A DNA stretch of 64,000 nucleotides from the NCBI RefSeq assembly GCF_016863315.1, contig NZ_BOOQ01000006.1, positions 1 through 64,000 on the forward strand, read 5' to 3'. Positions 12,410-64,000 of this stretch are shown piece by piece. The notes beneath the pieces are model-generated. The model was not told where the DNA came from, made no database searches, and saw nothing but the letters and a program-made list of their open reading frames with translations. Source of the DNA: Planotetraspora silvatica (lineage in GTDB: Bacteria > Actinomycetota > Actinomycetes > Streptosporangiales > Streptosporangiaceae). Each line of letters opens with the position of its first letter. Position 1 is the first letter of the stretch. The position numbers were made by a program, and so were the translations under genes.

Positions 12410-12997
12410 ATGAGTCCGCGAAGCAGTGTGATGCCGATCGTGGCGAGCGGCACCGTGAACATGGCGAAGCTGCTGATCGCCACCATGGCGGTGGCCGGCG
12501 CGTACGTGGGGGCGCAGGCGTCCCAGACCGAGCCCGGCGGTGTCCCGGCGATCTCGTCCACGGTGCCCTCGGCGCCCGCGAGGTCCACCGGGTCCACCGC
12601 CGCGGCGTCGGCGGCGTCCACGACAGGGGCCTTCGCGGACCGGCCCACCCGAGTGATGACCCTGACCACCCGCGCCGATGAGACGGACGCGGCCCCCAGG
12701 CCCGGCACGGTGGAGGTGACCATGACGCCCGGAGGCGCGGGATGCGAGCGGACCTACCGGGTGCGGACGGTGATCGGCTCCCCCGGCGCGGACACCTCGT
12801 ACGGCTGGCAGGTCCAGCGCTGGAACTCCGCGACAGGTGAGTGGCAGCCCTACTTCGCCAGCAGGAGCGGTTTCACGGGCGGCCCGCGGGCCGTCGAGTG
12901 GCGGCCGAGGATCTCTGGCAACCCCGGTCGCTACCGCGTGCGGCTCGACGTCGCCTCCCGCTCATACGAGAGTGCGACGTTCCAGATCACCTGCTGA
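12410..12997 (+). CDS. Secreted or membrane-anchored hypothetical protein
   Basis: A 195-residue protein with an uncleaved-looking signal sequence (about 17-36), then an Ala/Ser/Thr-rich linker to about 80 and a compact C-terminal domain with beta-strand spacing and two cysteines (CERTYRVRT and the final ITC), likely a disulfide-bonded beta-sandwich. The function is unknown. ATG 12410 follows a strong AAGGAAGGGGAGG site. The gene stops 26 bp before repeat array A, which fills the rest of the gap to the convergent regulator. Confidence 0.8.
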   Translation: MSPRSSVMPIVASGTVNMAKLLIATMAVAGAYVGAQASQTEPGGVPAISSTVPSAPARSTGSTAAASAASTTGAFADRPTRVMTLTTRADETDAAPRPGTVEVTMTPGGAGCERTYRVRTVIGSPGADTSYGWQVQRWNSATGEWQPYFASRSGFTGGPRAVEWRPRISGNPGRYRVRLDVASRSYESATFQITC

Positions 12998-13023
12998 CCA
13001 TGTGACCTCGGCCCTTTTGGGTG

Positions 13024-13377
13024 GTGATCATGCACAGGTTCTGCGAAGGGCCCATCCACAAGCCCAAACCCCCGCCGTGATCATGCACAGGTTCGGCGAA
13101 AGGCCCTTGACCTGCGGATCCCGAGTTCGTGATCATGCGCAGGTTCGGGGAATCACCCCACCACCAGGGCGCATTCACCGCGTGATCATGCAACGAGCCC
13201 GCCGCTGCATGATCACGGTCGTCATCGTCCGAGGTCGACAGCCCGATCTCCGAAAGCGCGCATGATCACGCTCACGGTTTGACCAGGTCACTCGGCAAGA
13301 GCCCGAATCCGTGCATGATCACGGGCTGGGTTTGTGCACGTCAACAGCACCTTCGCCGAACCTGTGCATGATCACGA
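13024..13377. repeat. Repeat array A: 53-bp-period motif in two opposed blocks (8 copies)
   Basis: Fills the 381-bp gap between two convergent genes. The best-conserved unit is GTGATCATGCAC followed by AGGTTCGGCGAA, about 24 bp. Plus-orientation copies start at 13024, 13077, 13129 and 13182; minus-orientation cores GCATGATCAC start at 13207, 13260, 13313 and 13366. Successive starts are 52-53 bp apart within each block. The two blocks meet at a hairpin (GTGATCATGCA 13182-13192 with TGCATGATCAC 13206-13216). Each unit holds two short palindromes, TGATCA and TTCG-N-CGAA. The last copy abuts the stop codon of the regulator gene. Array B (63080-63483) has the same design. Function unknown. Confidence 0.92.
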
Positions 13378-13378
13378 C

Positions 13379-16300
13379 TCAGGTGGGCAGGGACTGGCGG
13401 GCTTCGTCGATCCAGCGGGGGACGCCGACCCGCTCCGCCACCCCGAGGGCCGTCTCGTAGTGCTCACGGGCGGGCAGGCCGAGCCGTACGGCGAGATCTC
13501 CGAGAGTCCTGGCCACCGGCCACAGGGCGACCACGCCGGTTCCCGCTCCGGCGATGCGGTCGCGGAACGGCACGAGCTTCTCGTAGGCCTCCTTCATCCG
13601 ATCGGCGTCGTCGAGGAGCATCCCGGCGAGCGCCCGCCAGATGAGCGCGAGCTCGTAGAGGAAGTCGGTGCGCACCGGCTCCCGCCCGGTCGCGATGACC
13701 TGGGCGTCCTTCAGGTGGCCGGCGGACGCGAGCGCTACGGCGTAGGCGTCGAGCGTCCACTTGGCTCCCCGCTGGTGCGCCTCGGCGAGCGGCTCGGCCA
13801 TCTCGGCGGCGCGCCCGTCCACGAGGTGCAGGCAGAAGGTCGCGATCAGCGGCAGGTCCTGGCGGCCCTCCAGCATGCCCGCCCGGGCCGTCAGCCTGGC
13901 CGCGTTGCGGTAGGCCCGCTCGGCTTCCGCGTAGTCGCCGGTGATCATCAGGCGCTGTCCGGCGTACCAGGCGCCGACGGCGGCCGGGGCCGGCAGGTCG
14001 TACTGGCGTCCGAGCGACTCAGCCTCCGCCAGGTGCCCGTCTGCCTCGGCGAAGTCGCCGCGCGCCGCCGCGCATTCGAGCAGGACGAGGTGGGCCAGCG
14101 CCCGGACGGCGATCTGTCCTGATTCCGCGCCGACCCTGAGCAGTTCGCGGCCGATGGTCTCCCGCTCGTCGACCTGCGTCATCGTGTAGGACTGGCGCAG
14201 CCTGCCGCTGAGCGCCACCGCCAGCAGGGCCGGGTCGCCGCTCGACCGGGCCAGTTCCTCCGCCTCCAGCGACGCCTGGTATCCGCGCTGGGTGGCGGAG
14301 CCCTCCAGTTCGAGCGCCAGCGTGGCCAGCAGGCTCGCCCGCAACGACTGCTCGCCCGGAGGCAGCTCGACCAGGGCCTTCTCGGTGACGTCGACGATCT
14401 CCCAGGCGGTCCTGGTGAAGTCGCGGGCGATCCCCTTGTGCGGGACGGCGAGGGCCGCCGCGATCCGCGCCGTCAGCTCCATGTCGCCGAGCGGAAGGGC
14501 GACGTTCATGGCCTCCCGCCGCAGGCCGCGCGCGGCGGTCATGTCGCCGCCCAGGGCCAGCGCCCTGATGTGCCTGAGCTGAAGCTCCAGCCGCTCCCTG
14601 ACGGGGCCGTGTCCGCCGTGAGCGCGGTCGAGGGCGGTGACGGCCTGCTGCCACAACGACGCCGCCTCGCGATGCGCGAACCGACGCTCGGCCTGCTCGG
14701 CCGCCAGCCCGGCGTACCAGCCGGCCTTCGCCGCGCTGTCCGCGGTGCCCGCGGCGTCGTAGTGGTGGGCCATCGCCGCCACGTCGCCCGGATTGCGCCG
14801 CTCGATCACGGACGCCACGGCCGCGTGCAGCCGGGACCTGCGCAACCGCGAGGCATCGGAGTACAGGGTGTCCCTGACCAGGTCGTGGTCGAAGCGGAGG
14901 AGGCCGGTGCCCGGCTCGGTGACGAGCCCGGCGAGCAGCGCGGCCTCGACGGCGTCCACCACCGCGTCCTCGTCGCCCGAGACGTCGACCAGCACGTCGA
15001 CGTCGACGTCGCGCCCGATCACCGCCGCCTGGAGCAGCACCTGCTGCGCCCGCTCGGGTAGCCGGGCGATCCTCCGGCGCAGGACGTCGCGGACCCCGGA
15101 CGGCACCTCGGAGATGTCGGCCTCGGCCTCGAACAGGCGGACCGTCTCCTTGACGAAGAAGGGGTTGCCGCCGGCCCGCTCGACGATCGTGGTGACGACC
15201 TCGTCGTCCACGTCGTGCACACAGGTCGCCCTGACCAGCTCGGCCACCGACGCGTCGTCGAGCCCGTCGAGGCCCACCCGCACGGGCCCCAGCCTGGCCA
15301 GTGCCGCGAGCACGTCCTGCTGCTGGTCGTTCAGCTCGCCGTCACGGCAGGTCACGACCATCAGCACCCGGCTGGCGGCCAGCAGACTGGGCAGCGCGCG
15401 CAGCAGCGCGAGCGTCTGGTCGTCGGCCCAGTGCAGGTCCTCCAGGACGATCAGCAGTGGGGCCTCGCGCGCCACCGCCGACAGGTAGCCGCCGACCGCC
15501 CGGTGGAGGCGGAATCCACCCGACGCCTCGTCGTCTCCCGTGTCCGGCGCCGCGTCGTCGAGCAGGGGCGCCAGCAGGGCGGCGTATTCGCCCGCACCGC
15601 GCCGCGCGACCAGAGCCCGCAGCACCTCGACCCACGCCCAGCCGGGAGGTGTCGCGCTGCTGTCCGGGCAGCCGCCGGCGGCCGCGATCCAGCCGCCGTC
15701 TTCCAGCAGGCCGGACAACTGGCGGACGAGCGTCGTCTTGCCCGCGCCGGGGTCACCGTTGACGACGGCGACGGTGAACCGGCCTGCCCCGGCACGCGGC
15801 GCCGCGGCCCGCAACATGTCCAGTTCGCCGTCGCGGCCCATGAAGGGCTCGGGCTCCAGCGGAGGCAGGTCCACCGCCTCGAACGACCGGGGCGGCCAGG
15901 TCGCGCCGATCTCCGTGGTCCGGCGGGCCGCGGGTGCGGCGAGGTCGAGTGCGGGGTCCTGCGACAGGATGCCGGACTCCAGCTTCCGCAGCGCCGGGCC
16001 GGGGTCGATGCCGAGCTCGTCCGAGAGGATCGTGCGGGCCTTGCGGATCGCGGCGAGCGCGTCTCCCTGCCGCCCGCACCGGTAGAGCCCGAGCGCGAGC
16101 AGCCGCCAGCCCTCCTCGCGCAGGGCGTGCTCGGTGGTCATCGCCTCGAGGTCGGGAACGGTCTCGGCGTGCAGGCCCATCCGCAGCCCGGCGTCGGCGT
16201 GCCGTTCGCGGGCCACGAGCCGGAGTTCGCTCAGCCTGGCCACCTCCGCCTCGGCCCACGACTGGTCGGCGAAGCCGGAGTACGGCGTGCCCTGCCACAG

Positions 16301-16711
16301 CCCGAGGGCGGACCCGAGCCTGGCCCTGGCCGAGGCGGGGTCGTCATCGAGCCACTCCCCGGCCGAGCGGACGGTCGCCTCGAAGCGCAGCGCGTCGACC
16401 TGCTCGGCCGCGGTGCGCAGGGCGTAGCCGGAGGCCACCGTCACCAGCAGGCGGTTCGGCCCGCCGCGCGGGCGGTTCGGCTCGAGCACGCGGCGCAGCC
16501 GCGAGACGTAGACCTGCAGCCCCGACTGCGCCCCCTTGGCGGCGTCGTCGTCCCACAGGTCGAACAGCAGCGTGTCCACGGGAACGACCTGCCCCCGTGC
16601 GACGAGCAGGCGGGCGAGGACGGCACGCTGCCGCAGGCCGCCGAGGTCGATGAGGCCGGCGTCGCCGTCGGCCTCCACCGGGCCGAGGACCCGGAACGTG
16701 ACCGGACTCAT
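13379..16711 (-). CDS. AfsR/SARP-type transcriptional regulator with BTAD, ATPase and TPR-like domains
   Basis: A 1110-residue regulator. An OmpR-like winged helix (about 1-95; FRVLGPVEA...LRQRAVLARLL) is followed by a bacterial transcriptional activation domain (about 100-250), a STAND-type NTPase with Walker A GDPGAGKTT (K325) and Walker B VLEDLHWADD (E424, D425), and a C-terminal half of helical TPR-like repeats. Such proteins activate specialised-metabolite or developmental genes when the TPR part senses a signal. No biosynthetic cluster adjoins it, so the target is unknown. ATG 16711 gives the family N-terminus. Repeat array A begins 2 bp beyond its stop. Confidence 0.92.
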   Translation of the reverse strand: MSPVTFRVLGPVEADGDAGLIDLGGLRQRAVLARLLVARGQVVPVDTLLFDLWDDDAAKGAQSGLQVYVSRLRRVLEPNRPRGGPNRLLVTVASGYALRTAAEQVDALRFEATVRSAGEWLDDDPASARARLGSALGLWQGTPYSGFADQSWAEAEVARLSELRLVARERHADAGLRMGLHAETVPDLEAMTTEHALREEGWRLLALGLYRCGRQGDALAAIRKARTILSDELGIDPGPALRKLESGILSQDPALDLAAPAARRTTEIGATWPPRSFEAVDLPPLEPEPFMGRDGELDMLRAAAPRAGAGRFTVAVVNGDPGAGKTTLVRQLSGLLEDGGWIAAAGGCPDSSATPPGWAWVEVLRALVARRGAGEYAALLAPLLDDAAPDTGDDEASGGFRLHRAVGGYLSAVAREAPLLIVLEDLHWADDQTLALLRALPSLLAASRVLMVVTCRDGELNDQQQDVLAALARLGPVRVGLDGLDDASVAELVRATCVHDVDDEVVTTIVERAGGNPFFVKETVRLFEAEADISEVPSGVRDVLRRRIARLPERAQQVLLQAAVIGRDVDVDVLVDVSGDEDAVVDAVEAALLAGLVTEPGTGLLRFDHDLVRDTLYSDASRLRRSRLHAAVASVIERRNPGDVAAMAHHYDAAGTADSAAKAGWYAGLAAEQAERRFAHREAASLWQQAVTALDRAHGGHGPVRERLELQLRHIRALALGGDMTAARGLRREAMNVALPLGDMELTARIAAALAVPHKGIARDFTRTAWEIVDVTEKALVELPPGEQSLRASLLATLALELEGSATQRGYQASLEAEELARSSGDPALLAVALSGRLRQSYTMTQVDERETIGRELLRVGAESGQIAVRALAHLVLLECAAARGDFAEADGHLAEAESLGRQYDLPAPAAVGAWYAGQRLMITGDYAEAERAYRNAARLTARAGMLEGRQDLPLIATFCLHLVDGRAAEMAEPLAEAHQRGAKWTLDAYAVALASAGHLKDAQVIATGREPVRTDFLYELALIWRALAGMLLDDADRMKEAYEKLVPFRDRIAGAGTGVVALWPVARTLGDLAVRLGLPAREHYETALGVAERVGVPRWIDEARQSLPT

Positions 16712-28834: not shown

Positions 28835-28921
28835 GCTCACCGCGCGACAAGGCTCACCGCGCGACAACGCCCGCCGTACGGGTCGCTCACCGCACGAAGA
28901 CGCTCGCCGTACGGGTCGCTC
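28835..28921. repeat. Short direct repeats between two hydrolase genes
   Basis: GCTCACCGCGCGACAA occurs at 28835-28850 and 28852-28867; CGCCGTACGGGTCGCTC occurs at 28872-28888 and 28905-28921. All lie in the 209-bp gap between allophanate hydrolase and nucleoside hydrolase genes and look like slippage-prone minisatellite DNA. Confidence 0.75.
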
Positions 28922-28927
28922 GCCGAC

Positions 28928-60534: not shown

Positions 60535-62952
60535 TCAGCCGCGGAGGCGTTCCATGGCGGGGTCGAACAGGGGTTCCTCGGCGACGACCGCGGCGATCCG
60601 CCGGTCGAAGTACCCGATGTGCACCACCTGGCCGGGGGTGGACAGCTCGGTGGGAAGCCAGGCGTAGGCGATGCCCTTGCCGATCGTGTAGCCGTAGGCC
60701 GCGCTCGTGACGTAGCCGACGCAGTGGTCGCCGTCGTACACCGGCTCCTTGCCCATGACCACGGCCTCGGGGCCGTCGATGGTCAGGCAGGTCAGGCGCC
60801 GCCGTACGTCCTGGCGGCGTTCGAGCAGGGCCTCGCGGCCGATGAAGTCGCCCTTGTCGGGCTTGACGGCGAAGGCGAGGCCCGCCTCGAAGGGATCGTG
60901 CTCGTAGGTCATGTCCGTGCCGAACGACCGGTAGCCCTTCTCCAGCCGGAGGCTGTTGAAGGCCCCGCGGCCGCCCGCGATGATCCCGTGCTCCTGGCCG
61001 GCCTCCCACAGGGTGTCCCAGAGCTTGGCGCCCATGTCGGCGGTCGTGTAGAGCTCCCAGCCGAGTTCCCCGATGTAGGACAGCCGCAGCGCCGTGACGG
61101 GAACCGCCCCGACGTAGGCCTTCTTGCCGCGGAAGTAGCGGAAGCCGTCCTTGGAGAAGTCGCGCCCGGCCAGTGGCGCCACGACCTCACGGGCACGGGG
61201 CCCCCAGATGCCGATACAACACGTCCCGGCCGTGATGTCGCGGACGACGACCGTGCCGTCGGCGTGCCGGTGGAACCAGTCCAGGTCCAGGTTGCCGTTG
61301 GCGCCCACCTGGTAGTGGTCGCGGCCCAGCCTCGCGATGGTGACGTCGCTGCGGATGCCGCCGTCCTCGTCGAGCAGCAGGCAGTACGTCACCGAGCCGA
61401 CGGACTTGTCGACGTCGCCGGTCGACAGGCGCTGGAGGAAGGCCGTGGCTCCGGGCCCGCTGACCTCGATGCGCTTGAGCGCCGACATGTCGTACACGGC
61501 CACGGACTCGCGGGACGCCTGGGCCTCCGCGCCGACGATGGGCGACCAGTGGCGGGACGCCCAGTCGCCGGGGTGGGGGATGTCCCTGCCGTCGGCCAGG
61601 CCGGCGTTGGCGCCGTACCACTGGGGCCGCTCCCAGCCGGTCGCCTCCAGGAAGTACGCGCCGAGCTCGCGCTCGCGGGTGTGGAAGGGGCTGGTCCGCA
61701 GCGGCCGGAGGTCCGCCGGGGGCTCCAGCGGATGGATGATGTCGTAGACCTCGACGTAGTTCTGGCAGTCGCGGGCCAGGACGTAGTCGGGGGCGAGCTG
61801 GTGTTGCTCGAACCGGTTCACGTCGCACTCGTGCAGGTCGAACGAGGAGCAGTGGCCGTCGGCCAGCCACTCGGCCATGGCCCTGCCGACGCCGGCCGAG
61901 TGCGTCACCCACACGGCCTCGGCCACCCAGAAGCCCTTGACCTCGGGGGACTCGCCGAGCAGCGGCATGTTGTCGGTCGTGAAGGAGAACAGCCCGTTGA
62001 TGCCCTCCTCGACCTTGGCGTCGCGCGTGTCCGGCAGCAGCGACCGGGTCTCGGCCCAGGCGGGCGCGAAATCGTCCTCGGTGAAGGTCAGCACCGAGGG
62101 CATGACCTCCGCCTCGCCGAAGGGCAGGATCTCGTCGGAGGTGATCGGCAGGGGGCGATGGCCGTAGTAGCCGATGCCCAGCCGGTCGAACCGTTCGCGG
62201 TAGTAGAGGTCGGCGTCCTGGTGCCGCAGGATCGGTCGGACGGCCTCGTCGGCCTGGCCTTCGAGAGCGGCGACGGGGCCGGTCCAGGCGAGCTGGTGCG
62301 CGAGCGGCGTGAGGGGGAGCGTCATGCCCGCCATGCGGGCGACCTTGGGCCCCCAGATTCCGGCGCAGCAGACCACGATGTCCGCGGGGATCTCGCCCTG
62401 GTCGGTCACGACTCCGGTGACCCGGCCGTCTTCGTTGCGGATGTCGAGGACCTCGTGCCGGTCGAGGACGCGGACACCGCGCTCGCGTGCGCGTTCGAGC
62501 TGGACGTCGACCGCGCGGACGGCCTTGGCCAGGCCGTCGGTGGGGACGAACAGCCCGCCGAGCACCCGGTCGGCGGACAGGAGGGAGTGCCGCTCGACGC
62601 ATTCCTCGGGGGTCAGCAGGTGCGCTTCCAGGCCCCAGGCGGTGGCCCAGCCGTGGCGCCTGCGCAGTTCGACGAGGCGCTCGGGCGTGGTGGCGACCTC
62701 GAGTCCGCCCACCTGGAGGAAACAGCCGAGCGCGCTCAGCTTCTCGACCGTGTACCTGGCCATCTCGGTCATGGTCTTGGACGAGTTCGTCTGGAAGACC
62801 AGGCCGGGGGCGTGGGACGACGAGCCGCCCGTGGCCGGAACCGGGCCCTGGTCGACGACCGTGATCTCGGTCCAGCCCTTGGCGGAGAGCTCTTCGGCGA
62901 GGGCGGCCCCGACGACTCCGGCTCCGATGATGACGACGCGCGGGCCAGCCAT
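60535..62952 (-). CDS. GcvT-family FAD-dependent dimethylglycine oxidase/sarcosine dehydrogenase
   Basis: An 805-residue two-domain enzyme. The N-terminal FAD domain starts [22 protein letters not shown], with [16 protein letters not shown] (H48-like residue for covalent FAD in this family). The C-terminal half is a GcvT folate-binding domain ([47 protein letters not shown]). It demethylates dimethylglycine (or sarcosine) and passes the methyl carbon to THF. ATG 62952 has GGAGG at 6-nt spacing. First gene of the glycine-derivative operon; its promoter holds a 23-bp inverted repeat. Confidence 0.93.
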
Positions 62953-62968
62953 GTACACCTCCGTCGTT

Positions 62969-62991: not shown

Positions 62992-63079
62992 GTCCCGCAA
63001 CAGCGTCCTATTCACCCCATATGCCTGTCAAGAACATCCTTCTCCCGTAAATCCCCCTCCCTTTCCCGCCCCTTCCCGC

Positions 63080-63483
63080 GTGATCATGCACAGGTTCGGC
63101 GGAATGCCTGCCGACCCGCGCAAACCTCGGTCGTGATCATGCACAAGTTCGGAATCATGCCCGTCTACCGGCGGAGATTCATTTCGTGATCATGCGCGAG
63201 CGGCTTTGCATGATCACGTCAGCTATTAGCGCTGATCAGGCCGTACGTCTGCGAATCTGCGCATGATCACGGCATGGATTCGGGCAGGGCAACCCGTCTG
63301 CGGCCGAACCCGTGCATGATCACGGCGGAGGTTCGTGCAGGTCAACGCGGCCATCGCCGAACCTGTGCATGATCACGACCGAGGTTTGCGCGGGTCGGCA
63401 GGCATGTCGCCGAAGGTGTGCATGATCACGGAGTGGGTTTGGGCAGGCAGACGGGCGTGATCACGAATGTGTGCATGATCACG
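63080..63483. repeat. Repeat array B: 53-bp-period motif in two opposed blocks (9 copies)
   Basis: Same unit as array A. Plus-orientation copies begin at 63080, 63133 and 63186; minus-orientation cores GCATGATCAC begin at 63208, 63261, 63314, 63367, 63420 and 63473. The step is exactly 53 bp within each block. The orientation change occurs at GTGATCATGC (63186-63195) / GCATGATCAC (63208-63217), loop 12 bp. Semi-conserved 29-bp intervening sequence also recurs (GGTTTG-n-GCAGGTCAAC). It fills the gap between the promoter region of the oxidase operon and the 3' end of the aldehyde dehydrogenase gene, 19 bp before its stop. No other copies were seen in the window. Confidence 0.92.
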
Positions 63484-63501: not shown

Positions 63502-64000
63502 TTAGGGGGTGAACCAGTTTTGGGGGGTGGGGGAGATGTTCTGCCAGATGTGCTTGGGTTCGCGGTATTCGTTGAGGCCGGTCGGGCCCAGCTCCCGCCC
63601 GACGCCTGACTGCTTGAATCCGCCCCACTCCGCCTGTGGCACATAGGGGTGGTAGTCGTTGATCCACACGGTTCCGTGGCGGAGGCGCCGGGCCACCCGT
63701 GCGGCCTTGCCCGCGTCCTGGGTCCACACCGCGCCCGCCAGGCCGTAGTCGGTGTCGTTGCCCAGCCTGACCGCCTCGTCCTCGTCGCGGAAGCGCTCGA
63801 CCGTCAGCACGGGGCCGAACGACTCCTCCCGGACCACTCGCATCTCCCTGTGGCACTCGTCGAGCACGGTCGGCGGGTAGAAGTTGCCCTTCCCCGGCAG
63901 CCGCTGCCCGCCACAGCGCAGCACGGCGCCCTCGGCCACGCCGGCCGCCACGTAGGCCTCGACCTTGGCCAGGTGCGCCGCCGAGATCAGCGGTCCGGTC
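63502..64000 (-). CDS. Aldehyde dehydrogenase (betaine-aldehyde-dehydrogenase-like), C-terminal part
   Basis: The C-terminal 165 residues of an NAD(P)-dependent aldehyde dehydrogenase; the N-terminus with the catalytic Cys lies beyond the right edge. Hallmarks: NFYPPTVLDE, REESFGPVLTVERFRDEDEAVRLGNDTDYGLAGAVWTQD, HGTVWINDYHPYVPQAEWGGFKQSGVGRELG and LNEYREPKHIWQNISP, most like the glycine-betaine aldehyde dehydrogenase subfamily. This fits the adjacent dimethylglycine/sarcosine operon (choline to glycine-betaine breakdown). Repeat array B lies 19 bp beyond its stop. Confidence 0.92.
   Translation of the reverse strand, partial: TGPLISAAHLAKVEAYVAAGVAEGAVLRCGGQRLPGKGNFYPPTVLDECHREMRVVREESFGPVLTVERFRDEDEAVRLGNDTDYGLAGAVWTQDAGKAARVARRLRHGTVWINDYHPYVPQAEWGGFKQSGVGRELGPTGLNEYREPKHIWQNISPTPQNWFTP

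Follow-up and report, generated by a model that had tools for sequence, protein, structure and literature searches.

Layout of array B and its surroundings

The window considered here, the whole 64-kb stretch of Planotetraspora silvatica DNA that was analyzed, contains an array of repeats (array B) that sits between two minus-strand genes. Nine cores of the sequence TGCATGATCACG make up array B, three on the minus strand followed by six on the plus strand, with all steps between cores being 53 bp except for a 22-bp step at the center, where the orientation flips. Seven of the nine cores are exact, and two carry one mismatch. The locus comprises the following genes and features:

60535..62958, minus strand: gene left of array B with FAD oxidoreductase and aminomethyltransferase domains (DAO, GCV_T), predicted start 120 nt from the array
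63079..63196, minus strand: left block of array B, three cores (63079-63090, 63132-63143, 63185-63196) in 53-bp steps
63207..63483, plus strand: right block of array B, six cores (63207, 63260, 63313, 63366, 63419, 63472) in 53-bp steps
63185..63218: central inverted core pair, hairpin-capable (-18.2 kcal/mol as RNA)
63079..63152: inverted-repeat arm of 74 nt, 93% complementary to 63357-63430
63455..63466: off-phase extra partial core GCGTGATCACGA, within the last spacer of the array
63502..63999, minus strand: aldehyde dehydrogenase gene (PF00171), 3' part in the window, stop 18 nt from the array

On its left side, array B therefore lies 120 nt from the start of the neighboring gene. Read from the outside inwards, a unit consists of the core CGTGATCATGCA, the sequence CAgGTTCGg, a loose stretch, a box of the form tGACCTGCgc..aAC, and then the next core, with the innermost copy being a bare core. 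Spacer sequence is common to the left and right blocks, as seen in the 74-nt inverted repeat. Both the coordinates and the fold agree with the original prediction of a 3+6 array with a 53-bp period and a flip at a central hairpin, and the semi-conserved box that it had noted between units was found to be real (GGTTTG..GCAGGTC, reading GACCTGC..AAC in the opposite sense).

The same regularity extends to the other arrays of P. silvatica, where 114 of 124 within-block steps are 53 bp and 6 are 52 bp, and the 53-bp step is kept while the spacers diverge. The core letters GATC were invariant in 162 array units of this species, all of them chosen as having at most two mismatches to the core. No Rfam match at the gathering score was obtained in the 64-kb window. 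A short GC-rich tandem repeat (16/17/33 bp, TRF) lies at 28835-28925 of the window, and its consensus is unrelated to the core.

A second array in the window

Array A occupies positions 13023-13376 as four plus four cores, with steps of 53, 52, 53 / 25 / 53, 53, 53 bp, and lies in a convergent gap:

12428..12997, plus strand: convergent gene left of array A, encoding 189 aa without a Pfam hit, its stop lying 25 nt from the array
13023..13192, minus strand: left block of array A, four cores (13023, 13076, 13128, 13181)
13206..13376, plus strand: right block of array A, four cores (13206, 13259, 13312, 13365)
13379..16711, minus strand: gene right of array A, regulator with BTAD and AAA domains, stop 2 nt from the array

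Every one of the 17 core matches (at most one mismatch) in the 64-kb window falls in array A or B, compared with a mean of 0.17 and a maximum of 2 matches in 100 shuffles of the window. Array B had been described as a second copy of the element in array A; the two do belong to the same family, sharing the core, the extension that follows it and the GACCTGC box, but they are probably not copies of one another. Similarly, both arrays were said to lie just downstream of a gene on the minus strand, which holds for the stops at 18 nt (array B) and 2 nt (array A) but is not supported as a fixed place, since arrays occupy convergent and codirectional gaps and, rarely, divergent ones.

Copy number and placement

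Further copies, on which a general function had been made to depend, are found genome-wide: P. silvatica carries 751 exact cores, distributed 363/388 between the strands at a density of about one per 11 kb, with a reversed control pattern giving 0. Three of its contigs considered in full (C2, C1 and C6; 809,631 bases) carry 24 arrays with three or more units, and extrapolation from the core ratio gives about 150 arrays for the whole genome.

Placement was determined in the whole P. silvatica contigs and in stretches of three further genomes, referred to by our labels G145 (400 kb), G082 (120 kb) and G302 (160 kb). Genes are strictly avoided, copies inside genes having been named as evidence against a structural role: 233 of 236 exact cores lie in gaps (120/121 in P. 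silvatica, 78/80 in G145, 23/23 in G082 and 12/12 in G302), as judged with a 15-bp tolerance against genes from a codon-usage script, not a published caller. The intergenic share of these parts of the four genomes is 9-14%. Cores are densest at convergent junctions, a location that the original prediction had singled out for checking; summed over the four genomes, they are borne by 28 of 179 convergent, 40 of 612 codirectional and 6 of 211 divergent gaps, with the G145, G082 and G302 stretches having been picked for holding cores, which raises their share of core-bearing gaps. For the individual genomes, the convergent, codirectional and divergent counts are 11/107, 13/337 and 1/120 (P. silvatica), 14/44, 14/148 and 3/56 (G145), 2/13, 6/47 and 2/16 (G082), and 1/15, 7/80 and 0/19 (G302).

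The position of arrays relative to gene ends was also evaluated for 216 blocks of at least two units, taken from the P. silvatica contigs and 96 Planotetraspora loci. The gene nearest to the outer side of the block presents its 3' end in 135 cases, its 5' end in 68 and neither in 13, and a single block lies within a predicted gene. In 25 of the 135 blocks facing a gene 3' end, the TGA within the first core is the stop codon of the neighbor. Within P. silvatica, a gene start lies on the outer side of 10 of 37 such blocks. At 11 of 14 convergent G145 loci both stop codons lie at most 40 nt from the outer cores, so that the element takes up the space between the two genes.

Between codirectional genes, arrays of a single polarity showed no significant orientation to the genes across the four genomes (15 sense, 10 anti), and a sense orientation to the upstream gene, hinted at by the first arrays, was dropped on this count. 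No link between orientation and replication, which the original prediction had raised, was found in these draft genomes, where the origin position is lacking. An apparent forward-only strand bias over 500 kb of the G476 genome proved to be an artefact of the listing, with 36 kb of read sequence showing cores on both strands.

Distribution and dialects across actinomycetes

Amplification of the core is patchy. Within a class sample of 394 genomes, eight contain at least 20 exact cores (751, 288, 287, 100, 35, 29, 22 and 20) and the remaining genomes at most 8 each; within a family sample of 341 genomes, 15 contain at least 20 cores, one contains 17 and the rest at most 9. The two genomes examined from one genus hold 287 cores (G145) and none (G098). 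A public genome scan for two cores 53 bp apart returned at least 96 stretches, all from Planotetraspora among the matches listed. Lone core matches in other genomes of the family were set aside as background, with 15 of 26 sites lying inside a predicted gene (e.g., SulP- and aconitase-like genes, named by eye).

The amplified lineages have in common the 12-mer, usually with a C-rich tract before it, and differ in the sequence that follows and in the step between units:

Extension, P. silvatica and P. mira: CaggTTCG
Extension, P. thailandica: GAAGTTCG
Extension, Planotetraspora sp. A-T 1434: CaggTTCC
Extension, G028: GTTTTnnnCACA
Extension, G079: GCCGCTCGGC (few units, 5-7)
Extension, G082: ATCCCGCCACCC
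Extension, G302: CGCCAGCGCA
Extension, G208: CGTTCGCCCC (few units, 5-7)
Extension, G126: GTTGnTGT (few units, 5-7)
Extension, G145: cgTCcTGGG
Extension, G447/G448: GTTGTTCGCG (by eye, few loci)
Extension, G451/G452: ATCGTTCG (by eye, few loci)
Step, Planotetraspora: 53 bp
Step, G484 (another genus): 52-54 bp
Step, G492: 41 bp
Step, G082: 37/38 bp
Step, G145: about 34 bp
Step, G079: 22 bp (19 units in a row, three with one mismatch)

Inverted core pairs are mostly 26-51 bp apart. Outward-facing core pairs are present in G448 too, and the inward layout is therefore not universal. Since one 12-mer has been amplified in separate families with differing extensions and steps, the core itself seems to be recognized.

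Several further observations were made at these loci. The G079 rows, which run head to tail at 22 bp with 19 units (locus L215, 2863-3270) and 5 units (L216, 2589-2688), some of them with one mismatch, start 20-31 nt past a predicted plus-strand stop. In G082, another repeat, about 63 nt long and bounded by the inverted ends CACAGAATGCTG...CAGCATTCTGTG, was seen by eye between or beside cores in four places (L223, L227, L228). An Rfam search of 10 loci from nine genomes gave one tRNA only, and the arrays were unmatched.

Two functional readings can be weighed against this distribution. Sites for a structural protein that organizes the chromosome (nucleoid, segregation or replication-linked) would suit the approximately 150 arrays extrapolated per genome, the 53-bp steps near whole helical turns and the two-fold layout; this reading is nevertheless very improbable, given that the steps of other lineages (about 34 and 37/38 bp) are not whole turns, the strands are used about equally, the apparent strand bias was not real and the motif is lacking in members of the same genera. 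A DUS/USS- or Chi-like word with dialects, by which DNA is recognized as self during uptake or recombination, would account for a conserved core, lineage-specific extensions and inverted pairs at gene ends, features that resemble Neisseria uptake sequences (PMC2397512). Counting against it are the 3 of 236 cores that fall outside gaps, a density of only about one per 11 kb and the long regular arrays, and it is an extremely unlikely explanation.

Inheritance of arrays among Planotetraspora species

Comparison with P. mira (G004) over a 165-kb stretch of contig C2 showed 7/7 P. silvatica arrays to be shared in the same place and unit order, and the reverse comparison returned the same seven arrays. 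Arrays A and B and the arrays at L051, L113 and L120 are likewise common to the two species. Unit numbers differ at four of these loci, with 3+6 in P. silvatica vs. 5+5 in P. mira for array B, 4+4 vs. 3+4 for array A, and one unit in one block for L113 and L120. Genome G002 has 242 cores in total compared with 751 in P. silvatica; among eight P. silvatica arrays compared, seven keep at least two recognizable units in G002, one is gone, and 7/8 have fewer units. The difference in length at three G002 loci amounts to one or two complete units, with the junctions at cores. Array A is missing from G002, where its gap holds other sequence with a GC hairpin (by eye), and is present in G003 and G004, while array B was found in all five Planotetraspora genomes compared. 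The arrays are thus of long standing and at present pass mostly by descent at fixed places, any spreading phase belonging to the past.

In G002 and G003, the blocks of array B are parted by a gene that is not found there in P. silvatica, G001 or G004:

L177 6766-8088 and L178 6386-7726, plus strand: M20 peptidase gene (PF01546) between the blocks of array B

Arrays may be permissive places for gene gain or loss. An autonomous element was rejected, because blocks that face inward enclose ordinary genes (M20 peptidase, typA, ALDH and others) that are not the same from locus to locus, and no driver was found. A phage or plasmid source was also rejected, with 0 inverted pairs in viral contigs, no hits in phages and six weak hits in plasmids covering 9% of the query. 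As separate observations, cores lie on both sides of typA in three Planotetraspora species (L058 3709-5562, BipA_C; L086 2931-4784; L112 2166-4019), a typA-like gene lies near cores in G145 (L259), and a member of this cluster in G028 (L208) may be another EF-Tu-type GTPase. In P. mira, a 1.8-kb lower-GC stretch between blocks (L094, 2343-4125) is perhaps acquired DNA, and its small ORFs include one with an HTH_17 domain at 2569-2772.

Substitutions at shared loci are less frequent in the core than in the spacers. For array A in G003 and G004, fetched by position, 7/187 core positions and 44/385 spacer positions are substituted (P=0.0017), with G004 alone giving 4/91 vs. 20/189 (P=0.11). Across six colinear pairs the counts are 20/559 for the core and 213/1345 for the spacers (P=5.5e-16), so that the core changes 3-4 times slower than the spacers at the same loci, an apparent ratio that exceeds the true one because four of the six pairs were chosen for holding cores and P. 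silvatica cores were defined by near-match, which is estimated to lower the apparent core rate by up to about half. Selection, which the original prediction had offered together with a dedicated amplification mechanism in place of chance, is supported.

In array B, the spacers and, mostly, the dialects differ between P. thailandica (G001) and P. silvatica, and the flanks are conserved; the array stays in its place and its units are renewed in the local dialect. At one locus, the dialect arm is mostly CAGGTTCG-like in one species and mostly GAAGTTCG in another.

These comparisons bear on the reading of the arrays as relics of REP-like miniature mobile elements that spread in trans and are tolerated in gaps with no host function, the Planotetraspora arrays being later tandem and inverted slippage expansions. 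Patchiness across and within genera, lineage-specific subfamilies and orthologous arrays that differ by exactly one or two units all fit this account, as do the intergenic position and the scarcity of divergent gaps, REPs being found mainly downstream of genes in unidirectional and convergent gaps (PMC3733652), and the evenly spaced tandem REP arrays known in P. fluorescens (PMC3116915). We regard it as somewhat unlikely, taken as a whole, because no whole array was gained or lost relative to P. mira among the arrays compared and because the core changes more slowly than the spacer at fixed loci. Additionally, a RAYT/Y1 transposase (Y1_Tnp, PF01797) as driver was rejected, since it was matched in 2/13 amplified genomes vs. 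5/9 other genomes and is not associated with amplification, and three array-less loci inspected by eye showed no clean insertion boundary or target duplication.

What could read the core

The whole of array B folds as RNA with -253 kcal/mol (z -15.5), a stability that is to be expected because any inverted array must fold in this way. This fold, the convergent location, the 19-24 bp stems formed by chosen pairs in G145, G028 and G452, and the precedent of inverted uptake sequences acting as terminators (PMC2397512) would be consistent with function at the RNA level, in which inverted cores form long 3' UTR hairpins for bidirectional termination or for protection of mRNA 3' ends. The arms do not behave accordingly. 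In G145 (15 pairs), 98/135 arm positions are Watson-Crick compared with 98.1 (sd 3.6) in shuffles, and in G028 (18 pairs) the count of 178/216 against 185.8 (sd 4.2) makes the arms slightly less complementary than shuffled ones; no compensatory change keeping the stems was found in either set of arms, the test covering the extension only, in two lineages, as covariation is uninformative about an invariant core. Taken singly, three 53-nt units of array B folded no better than shuffles (z -0.23, -0.09 and 0.50), and one-polarity arrays exist, as do lone half-sites without a partner, which are present in several lineages. Hairpins would also have no need for an identical 12-mer in unrelated lineages. 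RNA-level function is an improbable explanation. A role of the arrays as a substitute for a lost Rho factor was rejected on other grounds, Rho being matched in 22/22 genomes (above the cut-off in 21/22).

Combined, the lack of arm covariation, the lone half-sites and the non-folding units fit independent half-sites of a DNA-binding protein. Together with the absence of an association with the REP transposase family, this makes DNA half-sites read by a protein a better account of the arrays than hairpins in RNA or REPs. The original prediction had listed targets of a repeat-binding protein among its options, an idea that is supported, with the protein itself putative.

A search for a reader among the neighbor genes shared between lineages yielded no candidate, these genes being mostly of common families. 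A lead comes from the arginine regulator ArgR of Streptomyces coelicolor. The exact core is contained in the ARG box CTCTCCGTGATCATGCACCC (11.8 bits) of an SCO5864 fragment that was shifted by ArgR (PMC5839063, Table 1), and for this box no differential transcription was seen in that study. In an ARG-box model built from 36 published S. coelicolor boxes, with the identical SCO5864 box left out, the core scores 11.6 bits in one register, a value reached by 0.0002 of letter shuffles, and the same figure holds for the best of nine registers. The median P. silvatica unit scores 8.1 bits in comparison with 9.0 for published boxes (each left out in turn). Among all 20-mers in contig C2, a score of at least 8.1 bits is reached by about 5 per 10,000, which counts against ArgR. 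Outside Planotetraspora, the medians range from 4.2 (G208) to 12.2 (G126). ArgR can thus be put forward as a candidate reader of the core.

That ArgR itself reads the arrays, with rows of ARG boxes bridging or titrating ArgR hexamers and little effect on nearby transcription, is a more specific reading and a quite unlikely one. Beyond the fit of the core in one register and its presence in the shifted fragment, the contiguous or 1-nt-spaced box pairs described in PMC5839063 resemble the 22-bp rows of G079. Core conservation, however, does not track ARG-box information (Spearman -0.02 over 12 positions with little variation), the two middle letters carrying little information in ARG boxes while the central GATC is invariant in the arrays, and the likeness came from a text match, after the fact. 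The missing transcription effect at the SCO5864 box also speaks against ArgR. ArgR is regarded as general in actinomycetes and so would not explain the patchiness, and ARG boxes account for neither the patchiness nor the near-invariance of the array core.

Proposed explanation

The description of the family, comprising its motif, layout, placement and inheritance, is firm. We infer the remainder, namely that the reader is a protein, what its identity may be and how it would affect transcription. Our tentative preference, which we hold as possible but somewhat short of probable, is that the arrays are rows of half-sites for a DNA-binding protein that mainly mark the ends of transcription units. 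As part of this same tentative explanation, the functional unit would be a directional half-site consisting of, usually, a C-rich tract, the core and a lineage-specific extension (CAgGTTCG in P. silvatica). In Planotetraspora the half-sites form rows with a 53-bp period, close to five turns of the helix, and point inward from either side of the gap between genes; a sequence-specific DNA-binding protein would occupy these rows. The occupied array might then act as a roadblock or insulator between neighbors, above all between convergent genes. The reader could be ArgR, whose ARG box the core resembles, or a dedicated protein that would occur only in lineages with amplification.

Several observations weigh against this end-marking role. 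A polar roadblock predicts an excess of sense arrays, so the 15 sense vs. 10 anti count speaks against it; cores do occur in divergent gaps (6/211), 10/37 P. silvatica blocks face a gene start, and promoter avoidance alone would give the observed placement too. G002, moreover, lives with 242 cores compared with the 751 of P. silvatica.

A stronger version, in which one DNA-binding protein (dedicated, or a repurposed ArgR) and hundreds of sites walling off transcription units form a patchily amplified system, is unlikely. In this version the sites would share a universal 12-bp word and carry a dialect arm that shifts in concert throughout the genome. If true, it would be the bacterial equivalent of terminator arrays that work as protein roadblocks, and the dialects of the sites would co-evolve with their reader. 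The combination of features is unusual: separate actinomycete lineages have each multiplied a fixed 12-bp word to between tens and hundreds of copies with a dialect of their own, the copies lie nearly always in gaps, and unit numbers differ between sister species. The arrays offer a directly testable case of co-evolution between a population of binding sites and its reader. Should the sites terminate or insulate transcription, they would represent a mode of gene separation for which our searches gave no description in these bacteria; should they do neither, they would form a family of extragenic repeats that is new. Among the titles listed in the literature searches, which mostly do not cover subscription journals, none described these arrays, and apart from the ArgR paper those matched by sequence included none on a bacterial repeat or binding site.

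Comparison with known systems

The arrays share with REP, REPIN and BIME sequences their short length, high copy number, extragenic and mostly downstream or convergent position, inverted dimers, lineage variants and tandem arrays. REPs are defined as imperfect palindromes with a 5-13 bp stem and a terminal GTAG/CGTC tag (PMC3733652), the tag naming their two super-families. The array unit, in contrast, is not palindromic, the three units tested are without a stem beyond chance, and no GTAG/CGTC is found at the CGTGATCATGCA edge in the lineage consensus lines, CGTGATCATGCA itself, as the word searched for, being the same in every lineage. Y1/RAYT is unmatched in 11/13 amplified genomes, the 12-bp word is identical across families and the step is fixed at 53 bp here. 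Because the tests for a palindromic unit, a tag and a RAYT all failed, the family was not filed as REP.

ARG boxes are loose palindromes mostly near the starts of regulated genes (PMC5839063), unlike the near-invariant word that is found here in rows between genes. The likeness lies in the core itself, 10/12 letters of which equal the model consensus in register, and in the identity of the exact core with part of a published box.

Mycobacterial MIRUs are tandem units of about 50-100 bp between actinobacterial genes; stop codons can lie inside them, and they sit in co-oriented operon gaps. Compared by description, the arrays agree with MIRUs in being tandem intergenic units in which the core TGA is a stop codon in 25/135 blocks, and differ in preferring convergent gaps and in facing inward from both sides.

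Neisseria DUS reportedly combine a conserved core with dialect parts and have many copies, some of them within genes. The arrays likewise have dialects beside an invariant core, as well as inverted pairs next to gene ends, but their cores are almost never in genes (3/236 outside gaps) and they form long regular arrays.

The mammalian Sal box with TTF-I is a roadblock terminator array. The arrays described here differ in that their bacterial reader is at present putative and in that no polarity was seen (15 sense, 10 anti). The resemblance would lie in rows of one protein's sites past gene ends, as proposed here, with the LacI roadblocks of PMC4132739 providing another example of a protein that blocks transcription.
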